Of a DNA stretch of 64,000 bases, positions 43,402-64,000 are shown piece after piece. The stretch covers positions 1,825,501 through 1,889,500 of the forward strand of contig NC_014365.1 in assembly GCF_000143965.1 (NCBI RefSeq), read 5' to 3'. The notes under the pieces were generated by a model. That model made no database searches. It worked only from the letters and a program-made list of their open reading frames with translations, and had not been told where the DNA came from. A program made the translations under genes and the position numbers. Position 1 is the stretch's first letter. Every line of letters starts with the position of its first letter. This DNA is from Desulfarculus baarsii DSM 2075. GTDB lineage: Bacteria; Desulfobacterota; Desulfarculia; Desulfarculales; Desulfarculaceae.

Positions 43402-44172
43402 TTAACGCCGGGGCATGGGCTCGCCAGCCAAAAGCCGCTTGGTCAATTCACGCCGTGGAGTATCCAACACCCGCGCCACGGGGCCAGACTCGATCACCGC
43501 GCCCCGGTCCATGACGTGAACCTCGGCGCACAGCCGCGCCAAGATACCCAGATCGTGGCTGATGAACAGCACCGACAGGCCTCCCACGACCAACTCGTCC
43601 AGCAGATCGACGATTTGCAGTTGACCGGGCAGATCCAGGCTGGCCACGGCCTCGTCGCAGATCAACAGCCGTGGCCCCAGGGCCAGGGCCCGGGCAATGG
43701 CCACGCGCTGGCATTGCCCGCCGCTGAGCTGGTGCGGCCGGCGCTCGGCCAGGCCGGGCTCCAGGCCGACGCGGGCCAGCAAGTCGCGCGCTTGGGCTTG
43801 GGCGCGCGGCTTCGCTCGCCCGGCGATGGCCCACAACGGCTCGGCCACGGCTTGGCTGGCGCTCATGCGCGGGTTGAGATGAACCTGGGGGTCTTGCCAG
43901 ATCATCTGGACCAGGCGGGCCAGGCGGGGCCTGTCGCCCTTGCCTCGGCCATATTCCACGCCGGCCAGGCGCAGTTGTCCGACGTCGAGGGGCTCCAGGC
44001 CCAGGATCAGCCGGCCCAGGGTCGATTTGCCCGAGCCGCTGGGTCCGGCCACGCCCACGGCTTGGCCAGGCAGGATTGTCAGGCTCACCCCGTCCACGGC
44101 CCGGCGCGCGCCGCCGCCCGACGCCGCGTAGGCCTTGGTCAGCCCTTGGGCGCGCAACAACGGCTCAGGCAC
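43402..44172 (-). CDS. ABC transporter ATP-binding protein (DppF/NikE type)
   Basis: GTG at 44172 with GAGG six bases upstream is preferred over TTG at 44184, giving 256 residues and an 8-base overlap with the preceding ATPase gene. It has Walker A GPSGSGKST, the Q loop in MIWQDP, signature LSGGQCQRVAIARAL, Walker B LLICDEAV (with Val-Ala rather than Glu-Pro after DE) and the switch His in FISHDLG. The VHLNPRMS stretch after the Q loop is typical of oligopeptide/nickel importers. It is the last gene of the operon and pairs with the ATPase at 44165-44944. Confidence 0.9.
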   Translation of the reverse strand: MPEPLLRAQGLTKAYAASGGGARRAVDGVSLTILPGQAVGVAGPSGSGKSTLGRLILGLEPLDVGQLRLAGVEYGRGKGDRPRLARLVQMIWQDPQVHLNPRMSASQAVAEPLWAIAGRAKPRAQAQARDLLARVGLEPGLAERRPHQLSGGQCQRVAIARALALGPRLLICDEAVASLDLPGQLQIVDLLDELVVGGLSVLFISHDLGILARLCAEVHVMDRGAVIESGPVARVLDTPRRELTKRLLAGEPMPRR

Positions 44173-44944
44173 GGGCGGCCTCAAGCTCGCGCAGGGCGGC
44201 CATGGCCAGGCGCGTGGTGGGGTGACGCGGGCTGGCCATGAGTTGGGCCGTGGGCCCGCTTTCGACGATCGCGCCGCGTTCCATCACCGCCACCCGCGCG
44301 GCCATGGCCGCGATCACTCGCCAGTCGTGGCTGATGAGCATCATGGCCGAGCCGTGCCGCGCGTTCATCAGGCGCAGCAGACGCAATATTTCCGCTTGCA
44401 TGATCGGGTCCAGGCCGGTGGTGGGTTCGTCGGCGATGAGCAGGCGCGGCCGCAGGCCCAGGGCCATGGCCAGTTGCACGCGTTGGCGCATGCCGCCGCT
44501 TAGCTGGTGGGGATAGGCGCGCTGGAGGCCGGGCTCCAGCCCGACTTGCGCCAAGAGCCCACCCGTGGCGTCGCGGGCCTGTTTGGGGGCCATCACGCCG
44601 TTGGCGCTCAGGGCCTCGGCCACCTGGCGGCCGATGGTCATGGTCGGGTCCAGGGCGGCGGCCGAGCTTTGCATCAGCAAGAACACGCCGCGACCGCGCA
44701 GGCCGCGCCACTGCCGTGGGTCGGTCATATTCAGCGTTCGGCCGTCGAAATCCATGCGGCCGGCCCGCGCCAATGCCGGCGGCGGGATCAAGCCGGCCAT
44801 GGCCGCCGCCACCAGCGACTTGCCCGCGCCGCTGGGGCCCACCAAGCCCAGGATCTCCGTCGGCTCGACGCGCAAATCAACCCCCCGCACCAGCGGCGCG
44901 CCGCCCGGACCCTCGACGCAAAGTCCCCGCACAGTAACGCCCAT
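44165..44944 (-). CDS. ABC transporter ATP-binding protein (DppD/NikD type)
   Basis: ATG 44944 is preferred (259 residues); TTG at 44950 would overlap the permease stop. Walker A is GPSGAGKSL, the Q loop lies in FLLMQSSAAALDP, signature LSGGMRQRVQLAMAL, Walker B LLIADEPTTGLDP and switch His in LISHDWR. The AALDPTMTIGRQVAE stretch is typical of the D-subunit of peptide/nickel importers. It forms the nucleotide-binding pair with the downstream gene product. Confidence 0.92.
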   Translation of the reverse strand: MGVTVRGLCVEGPGGAPLVRGVDLRVEPTEILGLVGPSGAGKSLVAAAMAGLIPPPALARAGRMDFDGRTLNMTDPRQWRGLRGRGVFLLMQSSAAALDPTMTIGRQVAEALSANGVMAPKQARDATGGLLAQVGLEPGLQRAYPHQLSGGMRQRVQLAMALGLRPRLLIADEPTTGLDPIMQAEILRLLRLMNARHGSAMMLISHDWRVIAAMAARVAVMERGAIVESGPTAQLMASPRHPTTRLAMAALRELEAARA

Positions 44945-44946
44945 GC

Positions 44947-45747
44947 TCAAAAATCCCTATCCTGGCGCACTTGCAACCTGTCGCGCAGGCCTTCGGCCAG
45001 CAGGTTGCAGCCCAGCACAGTGGCCGTGATGGCCAGGCCCGGCGCCAGCATCAGCCATGGCGCGCGAGCCAGGTTGGCCCGCGCCTCGTGAAGCATGGCC
45101 CCCCATTCCGGCGTGGGCGGCTGGGCCCCCAGGCCAAGATAGCCCAGCCCCGAGATGGCCACGATCATCCAGCCGGTTTTCAGCGAGGCCGCCACCAAAA
45201 TCGGCGCGGCGATCTCGGGCAGGACGTAACGCCGCGCGATGGCCCATCGGCCCAGGCCCAGGGCCTGGCCGGCCACGACAAAGCGCCGCGCCAGGGCGGC
45301 CACGGCCAGGCCCCGCGTGAAACGCGCCCACCAGGCCCAACCCGCCGCCGCCGCGCCCAGGCACACGCTCAAAAGCGATGGCCCCATGGCCCCGGCCAAG
45401 GCCAAGGCCAGCACCAGGCCGGGAAAGGCCAGGCCCACGTCCACCAGGCGCATCAAAAAGCCGTCCCAACGGCCGCCCAGCATGGCCGCCAAGAGCCCCA
45501 GGCCCAGGCCCAGGCCCAGGGCCAGGCCCGAGGCCAGCATTGCCGCGCCCAACGAATTGCGCGCGCCATAAATAATGCGCGATAGCTGATCGCGACCCAG
45601 GCGGTCGGCGCCCAGCGGGCGCTCCAGGCTGGGCGGGCGAAGGCGTTGGCCCAGATCAACGGCGTTGGGATCGTGGGGCGCCAGCCACGGCGCGGCCACG
45701 GCGACCAGCATCAAAAGCGCCACGATGGCGCCGCCAAGACGGATCAT
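44947..45747 (-). CDS. ABC transporter permease (DppC/NikC type)
   Basis: The frame is open far upstream, but ATG at 45747 overlaps the preceding permease stop (ATGA) and starts a normal permease of 266 residues. The N-terminus has one membrane segment then APHDPNAVDLGQRLRPPS and HPLGADRLGRDQLSR-type motif (PLGADRLGRD), which marks DppC/NikC proteins. The coupling region ARRYVLPEIAAPILV lies about two thirds along. Together with the upstream permease it forms the inner-membrane channel. Confidence 0.93.
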   Translation of the reverse strand: MIRLGGAIVALLMLVAVAAPWLAPHDPNAVDLGQRLRPPSLERPLGADRLGRDQLSRIIYGARNSLGAAMLASGLALGLGLGLGLLAAMLGGRWDGFLMRLVDVGLAFPGLVLALALAGAMGPSLLSVCLGAAAAGWAWWARFTRGLAVAALARRFVVAGQALGLGRWAIARRYVLPEIAAPILVAASLKTGWMIVAISGLGYLGLGAQPPTPEWGAMLHEARANLARAPWLMLAPGLAITATVLGCNLLAEGLRDRLQVRQDRDF

Positions 45748-46727
45748 GGCTGGGGCTCCGGGCAAGATTCGCCGGCCGGCGCGGCTTGCCGCAGACGCGG
45801 ATCGACCAGGCGATAAAGCGCGTCCACGCCCAGATTGGCCACGACGTAAAACAGGGCCATCAGCATCACCGCCGCTTGCAAAACCGGCATGTCGCGGGCC
45901 AGGATGGCCTGGGCCGCCAGTTGGCCAAGGCCCGGCCACGAAAAAACCGACTCGACGATCACCGAGCCGCCCAGCAAATGCCCCAGGCACAGGCCCCACA
46001 TCGTCAGCGCCGGCAGCAGCGAGTTTTTGACCACGTGCCGCGTGAAGGTTTGCCAACGCCCAAGGCCCTTGGCCATGGCCAAGCGCACGTAGTCGCGGCT
46101 TTTGGTCTCGATGACGCTGGCCCGCAGCACCCTGGCCTGCATGGCCGCCACGGCCAGGGCCAGGGTCAGCGCCGGCAAGATCAAGTGCTCCGGCCCGCCC
46201 CGGCCCATCACCGGCAGCCAGCCGGCCTCCACGGCGAAAAGCCAGATCAAGAGCATGCCCAGCCAATAATTGGGCGCGCTCATGGCCAAGATGGCGGCCA
46301 GGCGGCCCAGACGATCGATGAGCCGGCCGTGAAACAAACCGCCCAGCAGGCCGCCGGCCAGCGATAAGGCCACCACCAGCCCAAAGGCCGTCAGGGCCAG
46401 TTCGGCCGTGGCCAGGGCCCGGGGGCCCAGCTCCTGGCTGACGGGTCGGCCGCTGACGTAGGACAGGCCAAAATCCAGCCGCGCCGCCCGGCCCAGCCAG
46501 CGCAGGTATTGCAGGGCCAAGGCGTCGTCCAGGCCCATCTCGGCGCGGACCTGGGCCAGCTTCTGGGCCGTGGGGGCCTCGTAGCGGTCGCGCAGCAGGA
46601 TCTCGGCCGGGTCGCCGGGGGCCAGCCAGGTCAGGCCAAAGGTCAACACCGAGACGCCAAGCATGGTCAGCGCCAGCCGCCAGGCCTGGCCCCACAGGCC
46701 GGACAGGACGCGCCAGGGGCCGCTCAA
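45744..46727 (-). CDS. ABC transporter permease (DppB/NikB type)
   Basis: The frame extends to GTG 46763, but TTG at 46727 makes a 4-base TTGA overlap with the methyltransferase stop, the same junction style as elsewhere in this operon, giving 327 residues. Motifs fit the B-type permease: LTFGLTWLAPGDPAEILL, MGLDDALALQYLRWL, GGLFHGRLIDRLGRL and the EAA-like loop RDYVRLAMAKGLGRWQTFTRHVVKNSLLP. Several membrane segments are evident. The start choice is moderately certain only. Confidence 0.9.
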   Translation of the reverse strand: MSGPWRVLSGLWGQAWRLALTMLGVSVLTFGLTWLAPGDPAEILLRDRYEAPTAQKLAQVRAEMGLDDALALQYLRWLGRAARLDFGLSYVSGRPVSQELGPRALATAELALTAFGLVVALSLAGGLLGGLFHGRLIDRLGRLAAILAMSAPNYWLGMLLIWLFAVEAGWLPVMGRGGPEHLILPALTLALAVAAMQARVLRASVIETKSRDYVRLAMAKGLGRWQTFTRHVVKNSLLPALTMWGLCLGHLLGGSVIVESVFSWPGLGQLAAQAILARDMPVLQAAVMLMALFYVVANLGVDALYRLVDPRLRQAAPAGESCPEPQP

Positions 46728-47623
46728 GCCAGGGCCGCCAAACGGCGGGGACAGGCCCACCACAGCACGGCCACCTGCACCGAGCCCTGGGCGAGCACCA
46801 TGCCGTCATGGCAATGACGCCGCAAGACCGAGGCGATCTTGCCGTCCACTTCGGGGCCTCGCCGGCCAAAGATGCCGAAATAGCTGCGATAAAACCGGGC
46901 CACCTTTTCCACGGGCTGACAAAAGCGGCTTGTCCAATGCAGATGGCGCAAATTTGGCCGGCGTTCGGCGGCGATGAGATAGTTCACCGCGCAGCTAAGG
47001 TGGTGGCTGCCCTTGTGAAAGGGCATTTGCAGCACCTCGCCCCACAGCTCCCGCCGAAACTCGTATGGCTCGTGGCCAGTGCCCAGGGTCAGGGCGCAGT
47101 GGCCGCTCGACCAGCTTTCCAAGCGGGCCAGGCCCTCGGGCGACAGGGCCGGCGGGAAAAATCCGGCCAGGGCCAGAGCGCTTTTGCGCGCGGGTCGGTG
47201 ATCGCGCCAGTTGCTGTTAATCGTCGTTATTTCAAGCTGCTGGCTGAAAGATTGGCGCTTCAGGGCCGCCAACATGCCAGCGGAGTTGTCCAGCGCCGTC
47301 ACCCGCGCCCCGGCCTTGGCCAGCGGGATGGCCAGCGTGCCCGGCCCACAGCCCACGTCCAGCACGCTCGCGCCGGGACCGACCACGCCATTGGCCAGCA
47401 ACTCGTCGACCACCGCGCGGCCCAGGGTCTCGGGTTGGCCCCACAGGTCCAGGTAGATGTCGCTGACTTCGTCGTAGAAGCGATCCCAGGCCTTGGGGTC
47501 GATCTCCTGGGTTGTCTTGAGAAACGACGCCTCGTTGGCCCGCCGCCAGGCATCCTCCCAAAACTGGCGGCCGAGGGGGGCCATCTCCACGGCCAGATCT
47601 TGCATTTTCACTGCGGGTATCAT
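46724..47623 (-). CDS. Class I SAM-dependent methyltransferase inside the importer operon
   Basis: The 299-residue protein has the SAM-binding motif I VLDVGCGPGTLAIPLAKAG (about 89-107) and the acidic residue in TALDNSAGML. The N-terminal WEDAWRRANEAS and WDRFYDEVSDIYLD helices form a lid. ATG at 47623 overlaps the binding-protein stop by 4 bases, with GGGAGG in front, so it is co-translated with the importer. It has no signal peptide and should act in the cytoplasm. A role in modifying the imported ligand or its metal carrier is inference. I cannot name the substrate. Confidence 0.85.
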   Translation of the reverse strand: MIPAVKMQDLAVEMAPLGRQFWEDAWRRANEASFLKTTQEIDPKAWDRFYDEVSDIYLDLWGQPETLGRAVVDELLANGVVGPGASVLDVGCGPGTLAIPLAKAGARVTALDNSAGMLAALKRQSFSQQLEITTINSNWRDHRPARKSALALAGFFPPALSPEGLARLESWSSGHCALTLGTGHEPYEFRRELWGEVLQMPFHKGSHHLSCAVNYLIAAERRPNLRHLHWTSRFCQPVEKVARFYRSYFGIFGRRGPEVDGKIASVLRRHCHDGMVLAQGSVQVAVLWWACPRRLAALA

Positions 47624-49140
47624 TGGGCCTCCCAGGGCCCGCGCTCGGTGAGCAGGGGCCGGAAGTTCTGGTCCAGCTCCAGGGCCGGGGCCAGGCCGCG
47701 GCGTTGGGCGTGGATGCTGTGTTCGTGATAAAGGGCTAGCAGCGGCAGTTCGGCGCCGAAGATCTGGGCCAGCTGGCGGTAGATTTCGCGTCTGGCGCGG
47801 GGGTCCATTTCGTGGCGGCCGGCCTCGATGAGCTTTTGCGCCCGCTGGTTGCGCCAGCCCTGATTGGCCGCGCCGTGCTGGTCCAGGTAATACGAATAAA
47901 AAAAGTCCGGGTCGCCGGTCATGAGGGTGTTTGGTTGCAGGCTCAGGTCAAACTGGCTCTTGCGCAGGGCCTCGTAATAGCCGCCGGCCTCGCTGACGAC
48001 GATCTCGGCGGGCCAGCCGGCCTGGCGCAAGCGGTCTTGGATGATCTGGGCCATGTCCAGGTAGGGCCAGCGTTCGGTCGTGCCGGCGTGCAGCAGGATC
48101 AGCAGGGGCCGATTTGGGGCGGCCGGTTGCTCCGCCGCCGGCGGCGCGGCCAGGCCAAAGGCCCAGTCCACGGCCAGGTTGGTGTATGGGGCGCTGGCTG
48201 GCTCGCCGCTGTCGCCGGCCAGGGCCGCCACCAACGCGCGACGATCGACGAGCTCGGCCAGCCAACGTCTGGCCCGAACATCGGCGAATGGCGGCCGGCG
48301 GCAGTTGAAGAGCAGATAGTGGGTGGTGGCCACCTCGCGGCGCTTGAGCTCGACCCTGGGATCGTCGGCCAGTTCGGCGGCCTGCTCGGGCAGGATGGCC
48401 CCCACGTCGGCCACGGCGTCGATCGCGCCGGCCAAGAGGGCCATGACCCGCGTGTGGGCGTCGGGGATGTGGCGGAACTCCACCCGCCGATAGCGGGGTT
48501 TGGGGCCCCAATAATCACCAAAAGCCGTCAGCTCCACGCTCTGGTTGGGCCGGGCCAGCTCCAGGCGATAGGGCCCGGTGGCGATGAATTTTTGGATGCG
48601 CCCGGCTTGATCGAAGCCGCTGGGTTTGAGGATGGGCCCGCCGTAATAGGCCACCAAGCTGGCCAGATTGGGCGAGGGACGCTTCAGGCTGAAAACGACC
48701 TCGTCGCCCACGGCCTCCAGCTTGGCCACCTCGCGGTAGGCCCCGCCGGCGTCGTAGCGGGGATGATTCATGATCCGCCGCAGCGCCTGGGCCGCCTCGG
48801 CGGCGGTCAGGTCCGTGCCGTCGTGAAACTTCACCCCCGGCCGCAGCTTGAAGCGCCAGCGGCGGCCGCCGTCCTCCACCCGCCACGAACTGGCCAGCCA
48901 GGGCAGGGGCCGCATGTCCGGGCCCAGGTAGGTCAGGGCTTCCCAGGCGTTGGTCGAGCCGTGCACAAAGGCCCGGCTGTCGGGGCCGTCGAGGAAATCG
49001 CGGCCCACGCCGATGACAAGGCTGGCGTCGCCGCCGGCCCAGGCGGGCTGGGGCGAAGACGCCAGCATCAAAAGCGTCATAAGCGCGGCGATGATGGCCA
49101 GGGCCGTCAGGCCCCGGCGTTCGGGCAGGGATGCGTTCAA
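47620..49140 (-). CDS. Periplasmic substrate-binding protein (SBP family 5, peptide/nickel type)
   Basis: The 506-residue protein begins with a signal peptide (hydrophobic stretch about 12-30, cleavage near QPAWA). It then follows the family 5 pattern: LTYLGPDMRPLPWLASSW, WRFKLRPGVKFHDGT, RIMNHPRYD, TGPYRLE, and the lobe residues FNCRRPPFADVRARRWL. Start is TTG at 49140, 4 bases after the TonB receptor stop. It should deliver ligand from the periplasm to the two permeases. Peptide, nickel chelate or another metallophore are all possible. Adjacency to a TonB receptor favours a chelate. Confidence 0.88.
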   Translation of the reverse strand: MNASLPERRGLTALAIIAALMTLLMLASSPQPAWAGGDASLVIGVGRDFLDGPDSRAFVHGSTNAWEALTYLGPDMRPLPWLASSWRVEDGGRRWRFKLRPGVKFHDGTDLTAAEAAQALRRIMNHPRYDAGGAYREVAKLEAVGDEVVFSLKRPSPNLASLVAYYGGPILKPSGFDQAGRIQKFIATGPYRLELARPNQSVELTAFGDYWGPKPRYRRVEFRHIPDAHTRVMALLAGAIDAVADVGAILPEQAAELADDPRVELKRREVATTHYLLFNCRRPPFADVRARRWLAELVDRRALVAALAGDSGEPASAPYTNLAVDWAFGLAAPPAAEQPAAPNRPLLILLHAGTTERWPYLDMAQIIQDRLRQAGWPAEIVVSEAGGYYEALRKSQFDLSLQPNTLMTGDPDFFYSYYLDQHGAANQGWRNQRAQKLIEAGRHEMDPRARREIYRQLAQIFGAELPLLALYHEHSIHAQRRGLAPALELDQNFRPLLTERGPWEAQ

Positions 49141-49144
49141 GCTC

Positions 49145-51274
49145 TCACCACGTGTAGCGCAGGCCGATCATGCCTTCCATGTAGAAGCCCTGGTTGACGT
49201 AGACGATCTCGGTGGCGTAGCGCTCGTTGAAGATGTTGACCGCCGAGAGACAGGCGCTCAGCGCCCAGTTTTTGTCCAGCCGCCAATCGCGCCAGATCTT
49301 GGCGTCGACGGTCTGGTAGGCGTCCATGTGGAAGTAGGGCAGATCCTCGTTGTTGTCGGTGTAGTAACGGTCGCCGGAGTAGCGGAAAACCACCTCGCCG
49401 TTGAGTACCGCCGCGTTGGCGTAGCGCAGACCCACGCTGCCCCAATAATCGGGCGAGTTGAGCAGTTGGTTGCCTACGTTTTGCGGATTGACGTCGTCCT
49501 TGGTGATGCGCGAGTGATTGAGCGTGGCCGCCGCGAAGAACAGGAAATGCTCGGTGATGGGCTGATCCAGCGAAAGCTCAAGGCCGTAAATCTCGGCCTC
49601 GCCGATGTTTCTGGTGTGGATCAAAATCGTGTTGGGTAAGGTCGGGTGCTGGTCATAGGAATAGGCCATGATGTCTTTGATCTTGCCGTAGTAGGTGGTG
49701 GCCTTGAACAGGGTCTTCCACTGATTCAGGGTCACGTCGGTTCCCAGGTCGACCATCCAGGTTTGCTCGGGCTCCAGGTTGGGGTTGGCCTCGCGCTGGG
49801 TGGCGCCCACGTTCTGGTTCTGGAAGTACCACTTGGCGTTGCCGGGCCAATAGGCCGTGCCGGCGTTGGCCCGCACGGCGATGGTGTCGTTGAAGCGATA
49901 CTTCACGCCGCCGCGATAGGTCACGTGGTCCTTGCTGACCGCGCCGGGCTCCTTGTCGCTGGAGCCCGAGTCGTAGATGTCGTGATAGCGCCAATAATCG
50001 TAGCGCACGCCGGCCAGGATGCTCAACTTGTCGTCGAGCAGGAACTGCTGGTCTTGCATGTAGACGGCGGCCATGTCGGTGGTGATGTCGGAGCGATAGG
50101 TCTGGTTGGAGCTTGTGCCCTGATAATATCTGGTCTTTTCTTTTTCCTGGGCCAGGGAGGCGCCGGTGGTGAGCACGTTGTTTTCGCCAAGGTAAAAGTC
50201 GGTTTGCAGCTCCAGGGGCAGGCGCTGGCGGTCCCAGGTGGTGGTCTGGGTGATGGTGTCGTTGAGCACGACCCTGCCGTTGACCAGGCTCAGGCCGGTG
50301 GTCTCCTGGGAAGGGATGGACTGGAACTGATAGCCGGTGGTGGCCGTCAGCTTGCCCCAGTCGCTCAGCGGCGAGACGAACCGCACGCTGTTGACCACGG
50401 TGTCGCCGTTGTCGTTGATAATGTAGTTGGACTGGCCGCCGTAGAGATAGCGCTGCTGGTAGTTGATGGCCACCGTCAGGCCCATGCCGTTGTCGGCCTC
50501 CCAGCCGGCCTTGCCGGTGAGGTAGGTGTAGTTGTATTTGTTGTTTTCCAACGAGGCCTGGCGCACGTATTGCTTTTGGCCGCGGTTGAAAAGATCGACC
50601 ATGCCGTCCAGGGGCTTCATCTGGAAGCCGTCGGAGTAGTCGCCGCTGTAGCTGAAGTAATAGTTGAACTTGCCGTCGCGGTCGCCCACGGCGGTGTAGG
50701 GCCGGAAGGTGTTCATCGAGCCGTAGCTCATCTTGGCCACCGCGCCCATGCCCTCGTGGCCGCTCCTGGTGATGATGTTGACCGCGCCGCCGGCGGCGCT
50801 GGCCCCGTAGAGAGCCGATGACGGACCCAACACCACGTCCACCCGCTCGATGTCGTTGGGGTTGATGGCCGCCGACATGAAATGGTGAGCCGGCACGCCG
50901 TCGATGAGGTAGACCGTGCGCTGCAAAAAGTGGCCCGTGCCGCGCAGATGGACCCACGGCGGGCCCCAGGGATAATATTGGGCCACGTGCACGCCGGGGA
51001 TGTCGCGGATCAGCTCGCCGAAGTTGTTCATGTAGTAGTTGGGCTGGAAGTCGATGTCCACCCGATCGACCGAGTAGGCGTCCACCGGTGAGAGGTCGGC
51101 CTTGACGTCGGTCTTGGTGGCGGTGACGGTGATGTCCGACATTTCAGTCTTGTCGGCTTCCCAGTTGCGTTTGGCGCTTTGCCCGTCGTCGGCGGCCCAG
51201 GCCGGCGGGCAGCCCAGGGCCAGGGCCGCGACCAGGGCCACGGCGGCGATGAAGCCTCTTCCCCTTTTCTCCAT
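49145..51274 (-). CDS. TonB-dependent outer-membrane receptor
   Basis: The 709-residue receptor has a signal peptide ending PPAWA (about residue 27), a plausible TonB box in MSDITVTATKTD, a plug domain (IRDIPGVHV, VHLRGTG, LIDGVPAHHF, VDVVLGPSSALYGASAAGG, AVNIITRSG) and a beta barrel ending GMIGLRYTW with terminal aromatic. AAGGAA precedes the ATG. It is first in a seven-gene operon with a complete peptide/nickel-type importer and a methyltransferase, so the ligand is probably a metal chelate or similar molecule scarce outside the cell. Upstream lies a promoter and a terminator-like hairpin in the leader. Confidence 0.95.
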   Translation of the reverse strand: MEKRGRGFIAAVALVAALALGCPPAWAADDGQSAKRNWEADKTEMSDITVTATKTDVKADLSPVDAYSVDRVDIDFQPNYYMNNFGELIRDIPGVHVAQYYPWGPPWVHLRGTGHFLQRTVYLIDGVPAHHFMSAAINPNDIERVDVVLGPSSALYGASAAGGAVNIITRSGHEGMGAVAKMSYGSMNTFRPYTAVGDRDGKFNYYFSYSGDYSDGFQMKPLDGMVDLFNRGQKQYVRQASLENNKYNYTYLTGKAGWEADNGMGLTVAINYQQRYLYGGQSNYIINDNGDTVVNSVRFVSPLSDWGKLTATTGYQFQSIPSQETTGLSLVNGRVVLNDTITQTTTWDRQRLPLELQTDFYLGENNVLTTGASLAQEKEKTRYYQGTSSNQTYRSDITTDMAAVYMQDQQFLLDDKLSILAGVRYDYWRYHDIYDSGSSDKEPGAVSKDHVTYRGGVKYRFNDTIAVRANAGTAYWPGNAKWYFQNQNVGATQREANPNLEPEQTWMVDLGTDVTLNQWKTLFKATTYYGKIKDIMAYSYDQHPTLPNTILIHTRNIGEAEIYGLELSLDQPITEHFLFFAAATLNHSRITKDDVNPQNVGNQLLNSPDYWGSVGLRYANAAVLNGEVVFRYSGDRYYTDNNEDLPYFHMDAYQTVDAKIWRDWRLDKNWALSACLSAVNIFNERYATEIVYVNQGFYMEGMIGLRYTW

Positions 51275-58845: not shown

Positions 58846-59862
58846 ATGCCTCTGCCTCGATCACCGCGCGGGGTCATCGTGAAGTACGTCATCAATCTGC
58901 AAACGCCCGATCCAGCCAGACGTTCGGCCAGCATCGACTACCGCCTGGAGGACGCCCCGCCGGCCGCCCGCAGCGTGGTGGAGATCTGGCGCTTGCGGCC
59001 GGGGCTGATCCTCAACGTGGCGCGCCTGGCGCCGCACGCCACTGAGCGCGACAGTTTCGACATCGACCAGGGGCCGGTGCAGTTCGGCTTCACCGTGGCT
59101 GGCCAAAATCGTTGCTCCTACGCCAACGGCCGCCTGGCCGGCCAGAGCCACGAGCTGACTCCCGGTTGCAACAGCATTTTTCATCTATCGAAAACCAAAG
59201 GCAATATCGACCACGCCCCCGACAAGGCCATGTGCGTTGTCGGCGTCATGGCCACGCCGGAGTTTTTGAGCCAATACCTGGACGACGCGCAGAGCCCGCC
59301 GCCCAAGCTTCTGTGGCCGACCCTGGACGGCCGGGCCGACAGCCAGTTCGCCTGGTATGGCCGGCCCCATCCGCGCAAGGACGCCCTGGTGCGCGAGCTG
59401 CTGAGCCACCCCCATCAGGGCGGCCTGGAGCGCATGCGCCTGGAGGGCCTGGTGCTGCAACTGGTCGGCGGGCAACTGGCCGAGCTGGCCATGGCCGAAC
59501 GCCAGCGCCCGACGGCGGCGCCGCTGCTGCGCGGTGACGACCTGGAGCGCGTGGGCCTGGCCCGGCGCATCCTGCTCCAGCGGGCCGAAGACCCGCCCAG
59601 CCTGCGCCAACTGGCCCGCGAGGCCGGCCTCAACGAAAAAAAGCTCAAGTACGGCTTTCGTCAGGTCTTCGGGACGTCGGTTTTCGCCTATCTGCGCGAT
59701 CATCGCCTGGAAACGGCCAAGGGCCTGCTGGAGTCGGGCCGCATGAACGTCAGCGAGGCGGCCTTTTGCGTGGGCTACGCCAGCCTCAGCCACTTCAGCC
59801 GCGCCTTCAAGCGGCGCTTTGGCCTCAATCCCAGCGATTGCCTCCAGGCCCCGCCGCTCTGA
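58846..59862 (+). CDS. AraC-family regulator (PchR/YbtA-like)
   Basis: The 338-residue protein has a long N-terminal ligand domain (about 1-225) and a C-terminal double helix-turn-helix (RRILLQRAEDPPSLRQLA, NEKKLKYGFRQVFGTSVFAYL, then VSEAAFCVGYASLSHFSRAF and KRRFGLNPSDC). The NEKKLKYGF-type first HTH is typical of PchR/YbtA-like regulators that activate siderophore-receptor genes when the chelate is bound. It is directly upstream of a TonB receptor, as in those systems. Start may be ATG 58846 or GTG 58879. Confidence 0.9.
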   Translation: MPLPRSPRGVIVKYVINLQTPDPARRSASIDYRLEDAPPAARSVVEIWRLRPGLILNVARLAPHATERDSFDIDQGPVQFGFTVAGQNRCSYANGRLAGQSHELTPGCNSIFHLSKTKGNIDHAPDKAMCVVGVMATPEFLSQYLDDAQSPPPKLLWPTLDGRADSQFAWYGRPHPRKDALVRELLSHPHQGGLERMRLEGLVLQLVGGQLAELAMAERQRPTAAPLLRGDDLERVGLARRILLQRAEDPPSLRQLAREAGLNEKKLKYGFRQVFGTSVFAYLRDHRLETAKGLLESGRMNVSEAAFCVGYASLSHFSRAFKRRFGLNPSDCLQAPPL

Positions 59863-59879
59863 GCCTTGGCCCGCAGGCC

Positions 59880-59918
59880 GCAAAAAGTCCGTCCAAGGCA
59901 AAAATGGTCCCCGCCAAG
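59880..59918 (+). promoter_or_regulatory. Candidate AraC operator: direct repeats before the second TonB receptor
   Basis: GCAAAAA occurs at 59880-59886 and 59898-59904, and CCAAG at 59893-59897 and 59914-59918, giving two tandem near-copies about 18-21 bases apart. AraC-family proteins commonly bind such tandem half-sites just upstream of -35. The receptor ATG is at 60072. Confidence 0.4.
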
Positions 59919-60071
59919 ATTAGACGCTTCTAACAAAATCCGCTATTAGGGGTGCAAGCGTCTTGCGTCGCCCCGCCCAGGCCAAGGATCGGCGGGGCCG
60001 TCTTGGATCGAATCTCCGGCCGGGGCCGTCTGGTCTTTTTCGCGCTCCGGCCGCCTGGAAAGGGCCATGCC

Positions 60072-62126
60072 ATGAAAAAAGCCGTTTTCATCGCCGCCTG
60101 GCTGTTGTTGTTGCCGGCCCCGTGCCTGGCCGCCGACAACCAATCGGCCGTGGTTCTGGAACAAGTCACGGTCAGCGCCGGCAAGCGCGAGAGCGCCTTG
60201 CAGGATTTCGCGGGCAGCGTCTCGGTGGTCGATGAAGCCACCCTGGAGGAAAAAGGGGCCTGGACCTTGGGCGAGGCCCTGCAACTGACGCCCAACGCCT
60301 ATATGAAAACGGCCCTTTCGGGCAACACCGTGGTCATTCGCGGCCTGTCGACCATCGACACGTCGCTGTTCAGCCCGGCCGGGCTCTACGTCGATGACGT
60401 GGCCTATCCGCTGACCTACATGCAGAACCTGGATTTTCTGGACGTCGAGCGGCTGGAGGTCTTGCGCGGGCCCCAGGGCGCGCTCTACGGGGCCAACAGC
60501 GAGGCGGGCGTGGTCAACGTGACGCTCAACCAGCCCGGCCCCCAGGTCAAGGCCAAGGCCCAGCTCGATTACGGCGATTATGACACCCTGCGCATGGTGG
60601 GCCAGGCCTCCGGCCCGGTCTACGCCGACAAGGTCTTTTTCGGCGCGTCACTGTTGCGCGCCAGCAGCGACGGCTACGTGGAAAACCTCTACAAGCACGA
60701 CGACCGGGCCTCCAAGGAGGAGCTGACCGGCGCGCGGGGCGTGCTGCGCCTGACGCCCGGCCCGGACTGGGACGTCTCACTGGCCGTTGACGGCAGCCGC
60801 CAGAACCTGGGCCTGGGCATTATGCGTTATCTGGACGGGCCCAACCGCACCGAGGCCTTCGAGGTGCGCTCCAACGCCGCCGACGTGGCCCACGAGGACG
60901 CGCTGGGTCAGTCGCTGCGCGTCAAATACGCCGGACGCTGGGCCGATCTGCTTTCGATCACCGCCCACCGCGACTATGCCTACGATTTCGAGATGGACGC
61001 CGACCGCACCTCCCTGCCCGTGGCCCGCTCCAACATGGACCTGGACCAGTCTTCGTGGAGCCAGGAGTTGCGCCTTAGCTCCAAGGCGGCCGGGCCCCTT
61101 TCCTGGCTGGCCGGCGTCTATGGCAAGCGCGACGAACTGGACGTGAGCATGGACTGGACCAGGGCCGTGGCGGCGATGTCCAGCAAGCTCAAAACCGACT
61201 CGACCCTGGAAAACTACGCCGCCTTTGGCCAGGCCACCTACGCCATCATCGAGGGCCTGCGCCTGAGCGCCGGCCTGCGCGCCGAGGCCTGGCGGACCTC
61301 GGGCCAGCAGCGCTATCGCACCATTAGCCTGGACCGCTCCTACGAAAAAGATCTCGACGACGTGGAGATCTTGCCCATGGCCACCCTGGCCTACGATCTT
61401 CGCGCCGGCGTCATGGCCTACGCCACCATCTCCACCGGCTTTTTGGCCGGCGGCTACAATTACTTCTCGTCCAACTGCCTAGACACCTTCACCTATCAGC
61501 CCGAGCACACCGTCAACTACGAACTGGGCCTCAAGACGTCCTGGCTCGACGACAGGCTGACGGCCAACGTCGCCCTGTTTTACACCCAGATCCGCGACAA
61601 GCAGGTGCGCGAGGAGGCCCCCGGCGGCGGCATCGGGGCCTGGAGCTTCACCAACGCCGCCGAGGCCCACTCCAGCGGCGGCGAGATCGAGCTGGCCGCC
61701 CGGCCCATCCAGGGCCTGACCCTCTCGGCCGGCCTGGGCTACGCCGCCACCGAGGTCGACGACTGGACCACCACCAGCGGCGGCGTCACCTACGATTATC
61801 AGGGCAAGCAACTGCCCTGGGCCCCCGAGTTGACCTACAACCTGGCCGCTGATTATCACCACGCCTCGGGCCTGTTCGCCAGGGCCGATCTCTTTGGCGC
61901 GGGCAAGCAATATTTCGACGCCGAAAACACCCTCTCCGACAACGGCTACCAACTGGTGGGCCTGCGCCTGGGCTACGAGGCCGCCCACTACAACGTCTCC
62001 CTGTGGTGCAAAAACCTCTTTGACGCCGACTACGCCAACAAAAAGGTCACCGACGCCTCGGGTTACACCCTCATCGAAGACGGCGCGCCCCGCACCTACG
62101 GGGTCAGCCTGGGCTGGAGGTTCTAG
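60072..62126 (+). CDS. TonB-dependent outer-membrane receptor (second)
   Basis: The frame opens at 59952, but ATG 60072 after GAAAGGG starts the signal peptide (MKKAVFIAAW..APCLA), giving 684 residues. A TonB box may lie in VVLEQVTVSAGKRE. The plug has LGEALQLTPNAYM, NTVVIRGLSTID, LYVDDVAYP and VLRGPQGALYGANSEAG; the barrel ends SLGWRF. It is not closely similar to the receptor at 49145 in the plug, so it probably takes a different ligand. Regulation by the upstream AraC protein is likely. Confidence 0.95.
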   Translation: MKKAVFIAAWLLLLPAPCLAADNQSAVVLEQVTVSAGKRESALQDFAGSVSVVDEATLEEKGAWTLGEALQLTPNAYMKTALSGNTVVIRGLSTIDTSLFSPAGLYVDDVAYPLTYMQNLDFLDVERLEVLRGPQGALYGANSEAGVVNVTLNQPGPQVKAKAQLDYGDYDTLRMVGQASGPVYADKVFFGASLLRASSDGYVENLYKHDDRASKEELTGARGVLRLTPGPDWDVSLAVDGSRQNLGLGIMRYLDGPNRTEAFEVRSNAADVAHEDALGQSLRVKYAGRWADLLSITAHRDYAYDFEMDADRTSLPVARSNMDLDQSSWSQELRLSSKAAGPLSWLAGVYGKRDELDVSMDWTRAVAAMSSKLKTDSTLENYAAFGQATYAIIEGLRLSAGLRAEAWRTSGQQRYRTISLDRSYEKDLDDVEILPMATLAYDLRAGVMAYATISTGFLAGGYNYFSSNCLDTFTYQPEHTVNYELGLKTSWLDDRLTANVALFYTQIRDKQVREEAPGGGIGAWSFTNAAEAHSSGGEIELAARPIQGLTLSAGLGYAATEVDDWTTTSGGVTYDYQGKQLPWAPELTYNLAADYHHASGLFARADLFGAGKQYFDAENTLSDNGYQLVGLRLGYEAAHYNVSLWCKNLFDADYANKKVTDASGYTLIEDGAPRTYGVSLGWRF

Positions 62127-62129
62127 CAA

Positions 62130-63167
62130 ATGCCGTGCGAAATCAACGACGACGCCCAGAGTTTCGGCCCCCTGGCCCAGTGGTTGCAGGGCCCGGTGCT
62201 CCTGGCCCTGGCCGAGGCGGCCATCGAACTGGATCTGCCGGAGTTGCTGGCCCAGACCGGCGACCTCGACGCCTTGGCCCGAATGCTGGGGGCCCATCGG
62301 GTCAATCTGGGCCTGCTTCTGGACGCCATGACGGCCATGGGCCTGGCCGTCAAGCAAGACGGCCGCTACGCCAACACGGCCCTTGGCGAGATGTATCTGC
62401 GCCGCCAGCGCGACACCTATCTTGGTGATATGCTGATTAATCTCAAGCAGATGCAGCATCGCCACCTGGACAAGCTGGCCGAGTTGGTCCGTAGCGGCCC
62501 GCCCGAGGTCCACGGGGCGCAACGCCTGAGCTCCCCGGAGCGCTGGCGGGCCTCGGCCGGTCATCTGGCCAATTATCAGCGGGCCTACCTGGCCCCGCTG
62601 GCCGTGGAGCTGGTCGAGGCCCTGCCCGAGTTTCCGGCCATGAAGCGCGCCCTGGACCTGGGCGGCGGGCCGGGCCTGGTGATCATGGCCCTGCTGGAAC
62701 GTCGACCGGATCTGCGCGGGGCGCTCTGCGACCTGCCGCCGCTGGCGGAGGTGGCCCGCGAGCACGCCGCCGCCCGCAACCTGGAGGGCCGCCTGGCGTT
62801 TATCGCCGGCGACTACAACCAGGTCGACCTGGGCCAAGGTTACGATCTGATCTGGGCCAGCCACACCCTCTATTACGCCAAGGACATGGACGCCTTCATG
62901 CAAAAGCTTTTGGCCGCCCTCAATCCCGGCGGGGTGTTCATCTGCCTGCACGAGGGCCTGACCGAGGCCCGCACGGCCCCGTCCCTGCACGTCCTGGCCC
63001 GGCTGTGCCTGGCCCTGGAGGGCCAGGACGTCTCGTTTGACCACGGTTTTTTGGCCGAAAACATGCGCCGGGCCGGTTTCGCCAGAGTGACCAGTCGGCC
63101 CATCGATGGGCCCATGGGCCTGGTGTGGCTGGACGTGGCCCGCAAGGCCCGCGCGGAGGAGCAATGA
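62130..63167 (+). CDS. SAM-dependent O-methyltransferase-like protein (Methyltransf_2 type)
   Basis: The 345-residue protein has an N-terminal winged dimerisation domain (LAEAAIELDLPELLAQTG, LGLLLDAMTAMGLAVKQDGRYANTALGE). The SAM fold follows with RALDLGGGPGLVIMALLERRP, CDLPPLAEVA, FIAGDYNQVDLGQGYDLIWAS and GGVFICLHEG. This is the architecture of hydroxyindole/caffeate-type O-methyltransferases, and also of some corrin or polyketide methylases. It begins 3 bases after the receptor stop and overlaps the next gene by 4 bases. Substrate unknown. Confidence 0.9.
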   Translation: MPCEINDDAQSFGPLAQWLQGPVLLALAEAAIELDLPELLAQTGDLDALARMLGAHRVNLGLLLDAMTAMGLAVKQDGRYANTALGEMYLRRQRDTYLGDMLINLKQMQHRHLDKLAELVRSGPPEVHGAQRLSSPERWRASAGHLANYQRAYLAPLAVELVEALPEFPAMKRALDLGGGPGLVIMALLERRPDLRGALCDLPPLAEVAREHAAARNLEGRLAFIAGDYNQVDLGQGYDLIWASHTLYYAKDMDAFMQKLLAALNPGGVFICLHEGLTEARTAPSLHVLARLCLALEGQDVSFDHGFLAENMRRAGFARVTSRPIDGPMGLVWLDVARKARAEEQ

Positions 63168-64000
63168 AACGCCTGATCTACTTGGTGGTGCTGTGCCTGC
63201 TGGCGGCCTCGCCGGTCGGCGCGGCCGAACCTCTGCGTCTGAGCGGCCCGCCGGTGGTGGAGAGCCTGCCGTTGATGGCCATGGCCAGCCAGGGTCGCTT
63301 GCCGGGGCTGGATCTGGCCGTGGAGTTCCGGCCCTGGCGCGGCCCGGATCAACTGCGGGCGATGATCGCCGGCGGCCAGGTCGACGGGGTGCTCATCACC
63401 ACGGCCATGGCCGCCGTGTTGCGGGCCAGGGGCCTGCCCTGCCGGGTGCTGGCGGTGATGTCGCCGCCGGTGTGGCTCGTGACCGCCAAGCCCCGCCTGG
63501 CCAGCCTGGCCGACATGGCCGATCGGCCGATCGTCTTGCCTTTCGGCCCCGGCGAGATGCCGGCCTTGCTGCTGCGGGCCGTGGCCGCCCAAAGTGGCGT
63601 GAGCCTGCGCACCAGCCAGGCCGGCAGCGCCCTGGAGGCGGTCAACCTCTTGGCCATGGGTCGGGCCGATGGCGCCGTGCTCAGCGAGCCGGCGGCCAGT
63701 CTGGCCGTGGCCAAGGCCGGCCTGGAGCGGCCGCTGCACAAAAGCCTCGATCTGCGCCAGGCCTGGGCCCTGGCCTTTCCCCAATGCCCCCAACTGGCCA
63801 GCACCGCCTTGGCTCTGGTCGGCCCCCGCGCCAATGATCCGGCCGTGGGCCAGGCCGTGGCCAGGGCCTTTGGCCAAAGCTGCCCGTGGGTGCAAGAGCA
63901 CGATGATCAGGCGCGGGCCCTGGCCGCCGCGATGTTTCCCGACCTGGCCGCCCAACTAACGCCGGGCGCGCGGCCGGTCATCAGCCTGTTGGACGGCCCC
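63164..64000 (+). CDS. Periplasmic ABC substrate-binding protein, NMT1/SsuA-like, partial
   Basis: ATG 63164 overlaps the methyltransferase stop (ATGA), and the frame stays open for 279 codons to the window end. A signal peptide (MKRLIYLVVLCLLAASPVGA) is followed by a type-2 periplasmic fold: LRLSGPPVVESLPLMAMA, VEFRPWRGPDQLRAMIAGGQVDGVLI, MAAVLRARGLP, RPIVLPFGPGEMPALLLRA and NLLAMGRADGAVLSEPAAS. This fits the NMT1/SsuA/TauA group that feeds ABC importers. Permease and ATPase genes probably follow beyond the window. Confidence 0.87.
   Translation, partial: MKRLIYLVVLCLLAASPVGAAEPLRLSGPPVVESLPLMAMASQGRLPGLDLAVEFRPWRGPDQLRAMIAGGQVDGVLITTAMAAVLRARGLPCRVLAVMSPPVWLVTAKPRLASLADMADRPIVLPFGPGEMPALLLRAVAAQSGVSLRTSQAGSALEAVNLLAMGRADGAVLSEPAASLAVAKAGLERPLHKSLDLRQAWALAFPQCPQLASTALALVGPRANDPAVGQAVARAFGQSCPWVQEHDDQARALAAAMFPDLAAQLTPGARPVISLLDGP

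Follow-up and report, generated by a model that had tools for sequence, protein, structure and literature searches.

An operon of Desulfarculus baarsii DSM 2075 (hereafter operon B) joins a FyuA-like TonB-dependent receptor to a class I SAM methyltransferase and a periplasmic binding protein, and may well import a foreign metallophore and methylate it once inside, to release the metal or dispose of the ligand. Gene order, receptor type and importer type can be read from the genes; a metallophore is the ligand that we infer from them. We found no description of a methyltransferase-carrying uptake operon in the open-licence literature.

Layout of operon B

The features of operon B in the window (the whole stretch of 64,000 nucleotides analysed) are as follows:

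58846..59862, + strand: AraC-family transcriptional regulator (HTH_18, 83 bits; 59 per cent ortholog in L077)
59863..60071, no strand: 209-bp intergenic stretch, likely the operator/promoter
60072..62126, + strand: TonB-dependent outer-membrane receptor, FyuA-like (PF00593, 150 bits; Plug, 62 bits)
62130..63167, + strand: class I SAM methyltransferase, ASMT/COMT-like, with an N-terminal dimerisation domain (Pfam; model pLDDT 90)
63164..64108, + strand: periplasmic substrate-binding protein with the SsuA/NMT1/PqqT fold (model and Foldseek); the window ends at 64000 and the gene at genome position 1889608

The open reading frames (58846–64108) and the sequence bear out the triplet of receptor, methyltransferase and binding protein with an ATGA overlap that the initial annotation had described, and place it behind the AraC gene, whose start is uncertain (58846 or 58879). 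The operon ends 108 bases beyond the window. Its AraC and receptor genes are separated by 209 bp, receptor and methyltransferase genes by 3 bp, and methyltransferase and binding-protein genes overlap by 4 bp (the ATGA, read directly). After the binding protein comes a fused permease-ATPase of 528 amino acids (ABC_tran and BPD_transp_1), with a gap of −19 bp. This tight spacing is preserved between species.

The AraC protein is the presumed regulator of operon B. The 209-bp stretch contains no significant Fur-box-like site, and none was significant upstream of the methyltransferase-linked operons of the source genome (best 12/19; P = 0.09). The same scan gave 14/19 once, in a Spirochaetia locus, and 13 at an unlinked receptor, L013 (P = 0.005).

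The receptor and the binding protein

Both the plug (PF07715) and the beta-barrel (PF00593) of the operon B receptor score above cut-off, which identifies it as a TonB-dependent receptor. Compared as a profile (A3) with solved receptors, it matches FyuA (4epa) over its whole length at 175 bits, followed by PqqU/YncD at 93 bits, and FptA scores 72 bits. With the siderophore-type receptor family TIGR01783 it reaches 169 bits (cut-off 223.5), so it is related to that family but not a scored member. By these comparisons the receptor appears FyuA-like, the relation to FyuA being remote and visible by profile only. FyuA is likewise the best full-length solved match for four separate sets of methyltransferase-linked receptors, at a score roughly double that of the runner-up or higher, whereas it does not stand out in this way for a control set of receptors without a methyltransferase. 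A selenium system was also considered and rejected, because the NCBIfam selenoprotein receptor families (CU, PCPU and FCYXU) match only as distant receptors.

The binding protein had been labelled as NMT1 type. The label agrees with the fold but not with Pfam, in which the full protein scores 18 bits against NMT1_2 (cut-off 24.7). Its AlphaFold model (pLDDT 82.8) matches BDI_1369, PqqT, SsuA and Thi5 (Foldseek; PqqT, E = 6e-15; SsuA, E = 1e-12; probability 1.00). The PqqT match, together with PqqU/YncD as the second solved match of the receptor, would suit a ligand that is a quinone or another PQQ-like cofactor, salvaged and then methylated. We consider this decidedly improbable: FyuA scores far higher over the whole receptor, the unliganded structure 3hn0 ranks above PqqT for the binding-protein model with SsuA close, and the source genome has no match to the PQQ alcohol dehydrogenase family TIGR03075.

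The methyltransferase

The initial annotation's assignment of the methyltransferase to the Methyltransf_2 type holds: PF00891 scores 38.8 bits (cut-off 22.3) and PF08100 (Dimerisation) 30.9 bits (cut-off 25.6), with Methyltransf_12 slightly above Methyltransf_2. No signal peptide is apparent by eye. DtpM, DsyB, RedM and ASMT have the same fold and dimerisation domain, but they share only 20–26 per cent identity with the operon B enzyme, which differs in its import-linked context and in the substitution of Tyr/Asn for His. In ASMT-like enzymes the His after strand 4 is catalytic; in a 95-row alignment, the operon B enzyme has Tyr at this position, and the His is lost in the import-linked delta and archaeal group. 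A substrate could not be predicted from the fold, as its neighbors act on O, S, N and C.

One alternative is self-protection, in which the methyltransferase would detoxify an antibiotic-like chelator or thiol that has been imported, as DtpM does for holomycin, with metal gain secondary or absent. DtpM is indeed among the structural and sequence neighbors, and loss of the His might suit an acceptor that needs no base, such as a thiolate. DtpM is not the closest neighbor, however (3mcz, 2r3s, RedM and DsyB all score higher), and a dedicated receptor and importer would be odd for a poison unless it also brought metal, which leaves detoxification unlikely.

In a phylogeny of the methyltransferases, the import-linked enzymes cluster (38 rows; 10 changes vs. 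29.8 when shuffled). Loci with only a generic ABC match were scored as not import-linked, and L152 and L164, which lie on the same contigs as G146 and G372, were excluded. This clustering argues against the methyltransferase being passenger cargo or acting on a cell component (tRNA, lipid or quinone) when metal is short, as does the conservation of gene order across the source phylum, Spirochaetia and Alphaproteobacteria. Class I methyltransferases are nevertheless common (51 places in the source genome), and some of the linked ones resemble UbiE by Pfam; overall, we regard a passenger role as very improbable.

Pyrrolysine or selenocysteine, suggested by in-frame TAG or TGA in several methyltransferases, was rejected: in the three that were translated, the codon is the natural C-terminal stop, which the match had overrun, and those of G015 and G214 are complete open frames. 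TGA was also counted in the methyltransferase rows of G103, G221 and G284.

A second operon in the window

Operon A, at 43–51 kb, has the order receptor, SBP_bac_5 protein and methyltransferase, followed by Dpp-like permeases and ATPases:

49145..51274, − strand: TonB-dependent receptor, distant from the FyuA-like clade (Pfam; receptor tree)
47620..49140, − strand: SBP_bac_5 (NikA/Opp-like) binding protein (PF00496, 217 bits; Opp5A_nikA, 152 bits, below its cut-off of 600)
46724..47623, − strand: class I SAM methyltransferase (Methyltransf_25), overlapping the binding-protein gene by 4 bp
44947..46763, − strand: two Dpp-type permeases, by eye (the first at 45744–46763, the second inside the ORF ending at 44947)
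43402..44950, − strand: two Dpp-type ATPases, by eye (44165–44950 and 43402–44184)

The operon A methyltransferase has no Methyltransf_2 or Dimerisation match in Pfam and its receptor lies elsewhere in the receptor tree, in agreement with the initial annotation, which had placed the proteins of the two operons in different families. The convergent assembly that it proposed fits operon A compared with operon B, but in many other cases related receptors and one methyltransferase family have been reused.

How often receptors carry a methyltransferase

Nine of the 19 TonB receptors of the source genome have a class I methyltransferase on the same strand within 6 kb (null mean 1.43; none of 20000 random placements as high), and their operons include five importer types. 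With related operons collapsed, six independent cases remain (Poisson P = 0.0036). Because of this excess, and because gene order is kept in distant genomes, we conclude that the triplet is more than a chance arrangement.

Outside the source family, 4/41 receptors in six genomes are linked (3.1 expected), which is near chance, although the profile used there has a lower sensitivity than Pfam, and L104 and L117 escape the 6-kb rule because their methyltransferase lies beyond that distance on the same strand. A match to the methyltransferase family was the ground on which all seven other surveyed genomes were chosen, and one of them, G146, holds an ortholog of operon B; 24 of its 25 receptors were surveyed. 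Receptors shorter than 400 amino acids were left out of the survey, and those shorter than 550 out of the receptor tree. In that tree, 8 of the 16 FyuA-like receptors from three survey genomes have no methyltransferase within 6 kb, and a methyltransferase is therefore not required for uptake. Association between the FyuA-like clade and linkage is not significant (8/16 vs. 12/42; Fisher P = 0.14). Locus L151 pairs a receptor with an ABC pair and no methyltransferase seen by profile.

The general strategy that had been suggested is thus supported by the source genome and by recurrence of the triplet, but it is concentrated in the source family and in FyuA-like receptors. Its coupling of outer-membrane uptake to methylation stands genetically, in that methyltransferases occur in receptor operons with all five kinds of importer. 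The coupling may equally be to inner-membrane import: related methyltransferases also sit next to importer genes (of the FecCD/BtuF type) in some archaea, which lack an outer membrane. The imported ligand is the methyl acceptor that we infer.

Recurrence in other genomes

The initial annotation had made its reading depend on recurrence of the triplet, and the genome survey found it in unrelated genomes. Orthologous operons occur in 5 of the 395 genomes of a phylum sample, in one Spirochaetia MAG, and on plasmids of Rhodobacter capsulatus (pRCB133) and Rhodovulum; operon B orthologs are present in G146, G190, G014 and G372. Since R. capsulatus SB 1003 is genetically tractable and its plasmid carries the complete operon, with RCAP_RS17770 as the methyltransferase gene and RCAP_RS17775 as the receptor gene, the question is directly testable.

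A methyltransferase-based search of the genome contigs yielded at least 80 loci, which, being selected by methyltransferase, cannot measure how often receptors are linked; a single-protein search of the contigs gave no match. Of the 81 receptor places that scored above roughly 80 bits, the regions of G021, G161, G331, G371, G214, G325 and G146 were fetched. Around a similar module the importers are swapped: SsuBC-like, Dpp-like, FecCD/BtuF, ECF (CbiQ with two ABC proteins and Trep_Strep) or RhtX/FptX-like MFS. In G214, a related operon has an RhtX/FptX-like MFS protein and a YbtPQ-like ABC pair. The MFS proteins of five sister operons tested score 133–170 bits with TIGR02718, below its cut-off of 356; it is the top NCBIfam match in L010, L011 and L087 and the second in L081 and L147.

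Beta- and gammaproteobacterial relatives keep AraC, receptor, methyltransferase and MFS genes together. In Thauera (L179), genes for MoeZ, a JAMM protein and an AMP-ligase come after a methyltransferase–MFS pair, resembling the thioacid siderophore clusters described in PMC6006322. This likeness would suit a methyltransferase that makes the ligand instead of modifying it, either as a partner of a siderophore biosynthesis pathway or as what is left of one, and unfamiliar pathways could be missed by a gene search. Yet the Thauera group forms a separate branch that retains the His, and no MoeZ, JAMM or AMP-ligase genes were recognized among the ORFs read around operon B. The source genome has neither an NRPS condensation gene nor an IucA_IucC gene, and the ligand is therefore probably foreign. 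Among the listed neighbors of operon B and its orthologs, biosynthesis genes were recognized only at a distance. The R. capsulatus copy has a condensation-domain gene some 4 kb away; upstream of the Rhodovulum copy, also at about 4 kb, there are isochorismate/2,3-dihydroxybenzoate genes on the opposite strand, with a further receptor in between. A biosynthetic role is accordingly distinctly unlikely.

Proposed function

Under methylation of an imported foreign metallophore, the metal complex would enter the periplasm through the FyuA-like receptor and be passed by the SsuA-fold protein to the fused permease-ATPase; it would also be the signal to which the AraC regulator responds. In the cytoplasm, the methyltransferase would use SAM to methylate the ligand. 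The most economical purpose would be the capping of a donor group (phenolate, thiolate or nitrogen), leaving a chelator unable to rebind metal, so that the metal is released and the ligand disposed of. The same principle, built on different receptors, importers and methyltransferases, might operate in operon A and in the remaining methyltransferase-linked operons of the source genome. It is possible, though doubtful, that such methylation-coupled import is a widespread module, archaea included, in which capping of a donor atom by a cytoplasmic SAM methyltransferase makes metal release irreversible and in which receptors of various clades, importers of various types and methyltransferases of various families are freely mixed.

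The source organism is presumably anaerobic, judging from its relatives. How metal is recovered from foreign chelators that bind it very tightly has been worked out for few ligands, particularly under anoxic conditions; methylation would add a third release route to hydrolysis and reduction, and would offer a biochemical handle on orphan receptors. SAM-driven iron release without oxygen has a precedent in ChuW, which acts on haem and belongs to a different enzyme class (PMC6449446). When iron is limiting, P. gingivalis and P. intermedia strongly upregulate class I methyltransferases (PMC10434189), with no likeness to the operon B enzyme implied.

Comparison with known systems

Anaerobic haem degradation by ChuW shares with operon B a SAM-dependent step linked to anaerobic iron uptake; operon B, for which haem is not established as the ligand, has a class I methyltransferase, whereas ChuW belongs to the radical SAM enzymes. 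Thioacid siderophore clusters (PDTC, thioquinolobactin) resemble the beta/gamma relatives, and Thauera has thioacid-type genes; operon B differs in having no recognized thioacid genes, a different active-site residue and a separate branch.

Pyochelin uptake (PchR, FptA, FptX) has an AraC regulator, a TonB receptor and an RhtX/FptX-like MFS protein in common with the sister operons. To our knowledge, its operon contains no methyltransferase. Yersiniabactin uptake (FyuA, YbtPQ, YbtX, YbtA), whose genes likewise include no methyltransferase that we know of, shares a FyuA-like receptor and an AraC regulator with operon B, and the MFS protein and YbtPQ-like pair with the G214 operon. Operon B departs from it in combining an SsuABC-type importer with a methyltransferase.

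Organization of operon B

Operon B begins at the right end of the window (C1:1825501-1889500 of a closed genome of 3,655,731 bases) and comprises five genes in the same direction, the last of them beyond the window:

58846-59862, AraC regulator
60072-62126, TonB receptor
62130-63167, methyltransferase
63164-64108, binding protein, cut by the window edge
genome 1889590-1891176, permease-ATPase fusion of 528 aa

The gaps, in gene order, are 209, 3, -4 and -19 bp, and the spacing in the ortholog from G146, a genome of the same family, is identical except for the first gap. The coordinates, gene order and ATGA overlap of the initial annotation were correct; the AraC gene and the fused importer were absent from it.

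Directly after operon B, just right of the window, lies the gene of a 975-aa protein (locus L009, 11468-14395; genome 1891467-1894394). Its C-terminal part matches PADLOC CorA-like models (132 bits), a DHH-like motif is visible by eye in its N-terminal part, and three type III-D-like Cas7/Csm3 genes on the minus strand adjoin it (L009 15234-19999). The protein resembles an effector–phosphodiesterase fusion of the kind that belongs to type III CRISPR systems with CorA.

Protein families and probable ligand class

A receptor profile made from five operon B orthologs matches FyuA, the ferric yersiniabactin receptor (4epa), over nearly its full length at 175 bits, followed among solved receptors by PqqU (93 bits) and FptA (72 bits). 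FyuA is also the best solved match of four sets of linked receptors, i.e. those with a class I methyltransferase nearby (175, 234, 207 and 188 bits, in each set nearly twice the next match or more), and CirA that of an unlinked control set. The 'NMT1 type' initially assigned to the binding protein holds as a fold, its model being of the PqqT/SsuA/Thi5 kind, but not by Pfam, where the NMT1_2 score is under the cut-off. PqqU as second match and the PqqT-like fold speak for a PQQ-like cofactor, which is nevertheless an unlikely ligand beside the much higher FyuA score.

The methyltransferase has O-methyltransferase and dimerisation domains by domain search. Its AlphaFold model (pLDDT 90) has as structural neighbours 2r3s, 3mcz, RedM, DsyB, PigF, ASMT and DtpM, at 20–26 per cent identity; family membership therefore does not reveal which atom is methylated.

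Coupling of receptors and methyltransferases

The genome encodes 19 receptors (PF00593) and has 51 methyltransferase places (two methyltransferase families together). For nine of the 19 receptors, a methyltransferase lies on the same strand no more than 6 kb away; under random placement the mean was 1.43, and nine was reached in none of 20,000 trials. The nine cases are partly related, and six remain after related ones are collapsed (P = 0.0036). Two are operons A and B; the others, by locus, with the gene content of all nine assigned by reading, are:

L010 and L011a, receptor, methyltransferase, MFS
L011b, AraC, methyltransferase, receptor
L012, AraC, receptor, Trep_Strep, CbiQ, ABC pair, two methyltransferases
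L067, receptor, TrmO-like, FecCD, ABC, BtuF, methyltransferase
L069, described below
L076, methyltransferase, radical SAM, receptor, BtuF, FecC, ABC, DUF364

L069 (4699-12534, plus strand; genome about 1345.7-1353.5 kb) encodes a methyltransferase, a CobW-like GTPase, an ABC ATPase, an SBP_bac_6-like protein, a TonB receptor, a second binding protein, a permease and an ATPase; a single uptake locus thus combines a metal-chaperone-like GTPase with a pair of binding proteins.

Operon A (43-51 kb, minus strand) consists of a receptor, an SBP_bac_5 protein, a class I methyltransferase and, identified by eye, two permeases and two ATPases. Its order differs from that of operon B, because the binding protein precedes the methyltransferase. 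Its receptor gave no match to FyuA at E 1e-12 and is distant from the operon B receptor in the receptor tree. Similar sets occur in G146 (L135) and in G214 (L114), a further genome of the phylum sample, where the methyltransferase is placed first.

Recurrence

Relatives of the operon B methyltransferase occur in 212 of 395 phylum-sample genomes at E 1e-8. Only five (G000, G146, G190, G014 and G372) reach 200 bits, and all five have the AraC–receptor–methyltransferase–binding protein–permease/ATPase operon, with the binding-protein gene of G014 split by a transposase-like ORF. Across seven other genomes, 12 of 65 receptors are linked: 8 of 24 in G146 (expected 1.8) and 4 of 41 in the remaining six (expected 3.1; p = 0.37), expectations being calculated with the methyltransferase density of our genome. 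Coupling is therefore strong in this family and no rule for all receptors: the coupling is genuine and recurs, but less widely than the 'general strategy' initially proposed.

Following operon-B relatives, L078 (2493-6556), L153 (3993-9740) and L154 (8488-13309) share genes for a membrane protein, a sulfide/dihydroorotate dehydrogenase-like FAD/NAD protein and a PRK06851-like ATPase, possibly a ferric-ligand reductase set; L153 and L154 add a UbiE-like methyltransferase.

A profile search of genome contigs with the methyltransferase alignment found at least 80 loci. Among the 80 matches listed, 18 have a same-strand receptor within 6 kb (L152 and L164 duplicating G146 and G372), 8 an importer only and 33 neither; 21 others without receptor or importer lie within 3 kb of a contig end. 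MAGs of Spirochaetia (L154) and Desulfobacterales (L159) carry operon-B-like sets. One from Bacillota (L153) has SsuA–SsuC–ABC–methyltransferase on a contig that ends just upstream, so a receptor may lie beyond. In beta- and gammaproteobacterial relatives (Pseudomonas GM50, Delftia, Roseateles, Bisbaumannia, Paracidovorax and others), genes for a receptor, a methyltransferase and an MFS protein accompany a divergent AraC gene. The receptor-linked methyltransferase of Pseudomonas GM50 is followed, after ~3.7 kb, by a PigE-like aminotransferase (1431 bits; L181 12695-15232); PigF and RedM, among the structural neighbours of the operon B enzyme, are prodigiosin-type methyltransferases.

Five plasmid regions were opened among the 25 listed of 92 matching records. 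The full operon is present on Rhodobacter capsulatus SB 1003 pRCB133, whose proteins are 26–42 per cent identical to those of operon B, and in Rhodovulum sulfidophilum; two Azospirillum regions have AraC–MFS–receptor–methyltransferase, and the receptor is missing from that of Pantoea At-9b, where AraC and methyltransferase are present.

In Methanosaeta, Methanospirillum and Methanoregula, a methyltransferase relative stands beside BtuF and/or FecC genes. On ANME-1 contig L157, an ABC pair and two relatives occur together with a protein 47 per cent identical to the short L011 methyltransferase, so that two families that are separately receptor-linked in our genome meet in one archaeal cluster. 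Because other archaeal relatives had no importer nearby, this association is suggestive only. Clusters of five to seven methyltransferase-like genes on Methanosarcinales and ANME-1 contigs (L158 7971-14975; L165 2635-8889) include relatives of our receptor-linked methyltransferases. TrmO-like proteins (PF01980), usually responsible for tRNA methylation, are encoded in uptake-type operons of a bacterium (within L067, 9303-9857; 95 bits) and an ANME archaeon (L155 7467-7940; 107 bits), in the latter adjoining the methyltransferase relative.

Phylogenetic distribution

On the receptor tree (101 receptors, 37 linked), linkage requires 19 changes versus 30.1 when shuffled. In one branch (support 99), 25 of the 36 receptors are linked, a proportion inflated by loci fetched through their methyltransferase; within survey genomes G000, G146 and G214, 8 of 16 receptors in this clade are linked versus 12 of 42 outside (counted by hand from the tree; Fisher p = 0.14).

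On the methyltransferase tree (93 rows), import linkage requires 10 changes versus 29.8, with 36 of 52 rows import-linked on one side and 2 of 41 on the other. This clustering, like the gene order kept between distant genomes, speaks against action on an unrelated target, which is very unlikely. All 12 rows of the operon B branch are import-linked and have Tyr at the position that we take to be the catalytic His site of ASMT-like enzymes. Import-linked rows have there Tyr (15), His (11, nearly all from the beta/gamma group), Asn (10), Asp (1) and Ser (1); rows not linked have His (40), Asn (8), Gln (3), Tyr (2), Ser (1) and Gly (1).

Proposed function and comparison with known systems

Alongside the observed gene order, recurrence and families of these uptake–methyltransferase operons, we infer that operon B probably takes up a foreign metallophore, because the receptor is FyuA-like, importers are exchanged around the module (they include RhtX/FptX-like MFS and, in G214, a YbtPQ-like pair), and a search of this genome for NRPS condensation and IucA/IucC genes found none. 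With none of these genes found, a role of the methyltransferase in ligand biosynthesis is unlikely. Since no signal peptide is discernible by eye, the enzyme is expected to encounter its ligand on the cytoplasmic side. Detoxification of an imported compound is an unlikely alternative. Under metallophore uptake, a methyl group placed on one of the donor atoms of the ligand would release the metal and rid the cell of the chelator.

Full-text searches of open-licence PMC papers, among them PMC13188914, PMC2667541 and PMC5359404, found no methyltransferase described as part of such uptake operons. Related papers report class I methyltransferases induced under iron limitation in Bacteroidota (PMC10434189), a type-11 methyltransferase that P. 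putida up-regulates alongside iron receptors under chromate stress (PMC2996968), thioacid cassettes (PMC6006322) and ChuW (PMC6449446). Receptor–methyltransferase operons are probably a variant of metallophore-uptake operons and, if methylation-coupled release is the correct reading, would represent a new route of metal release.
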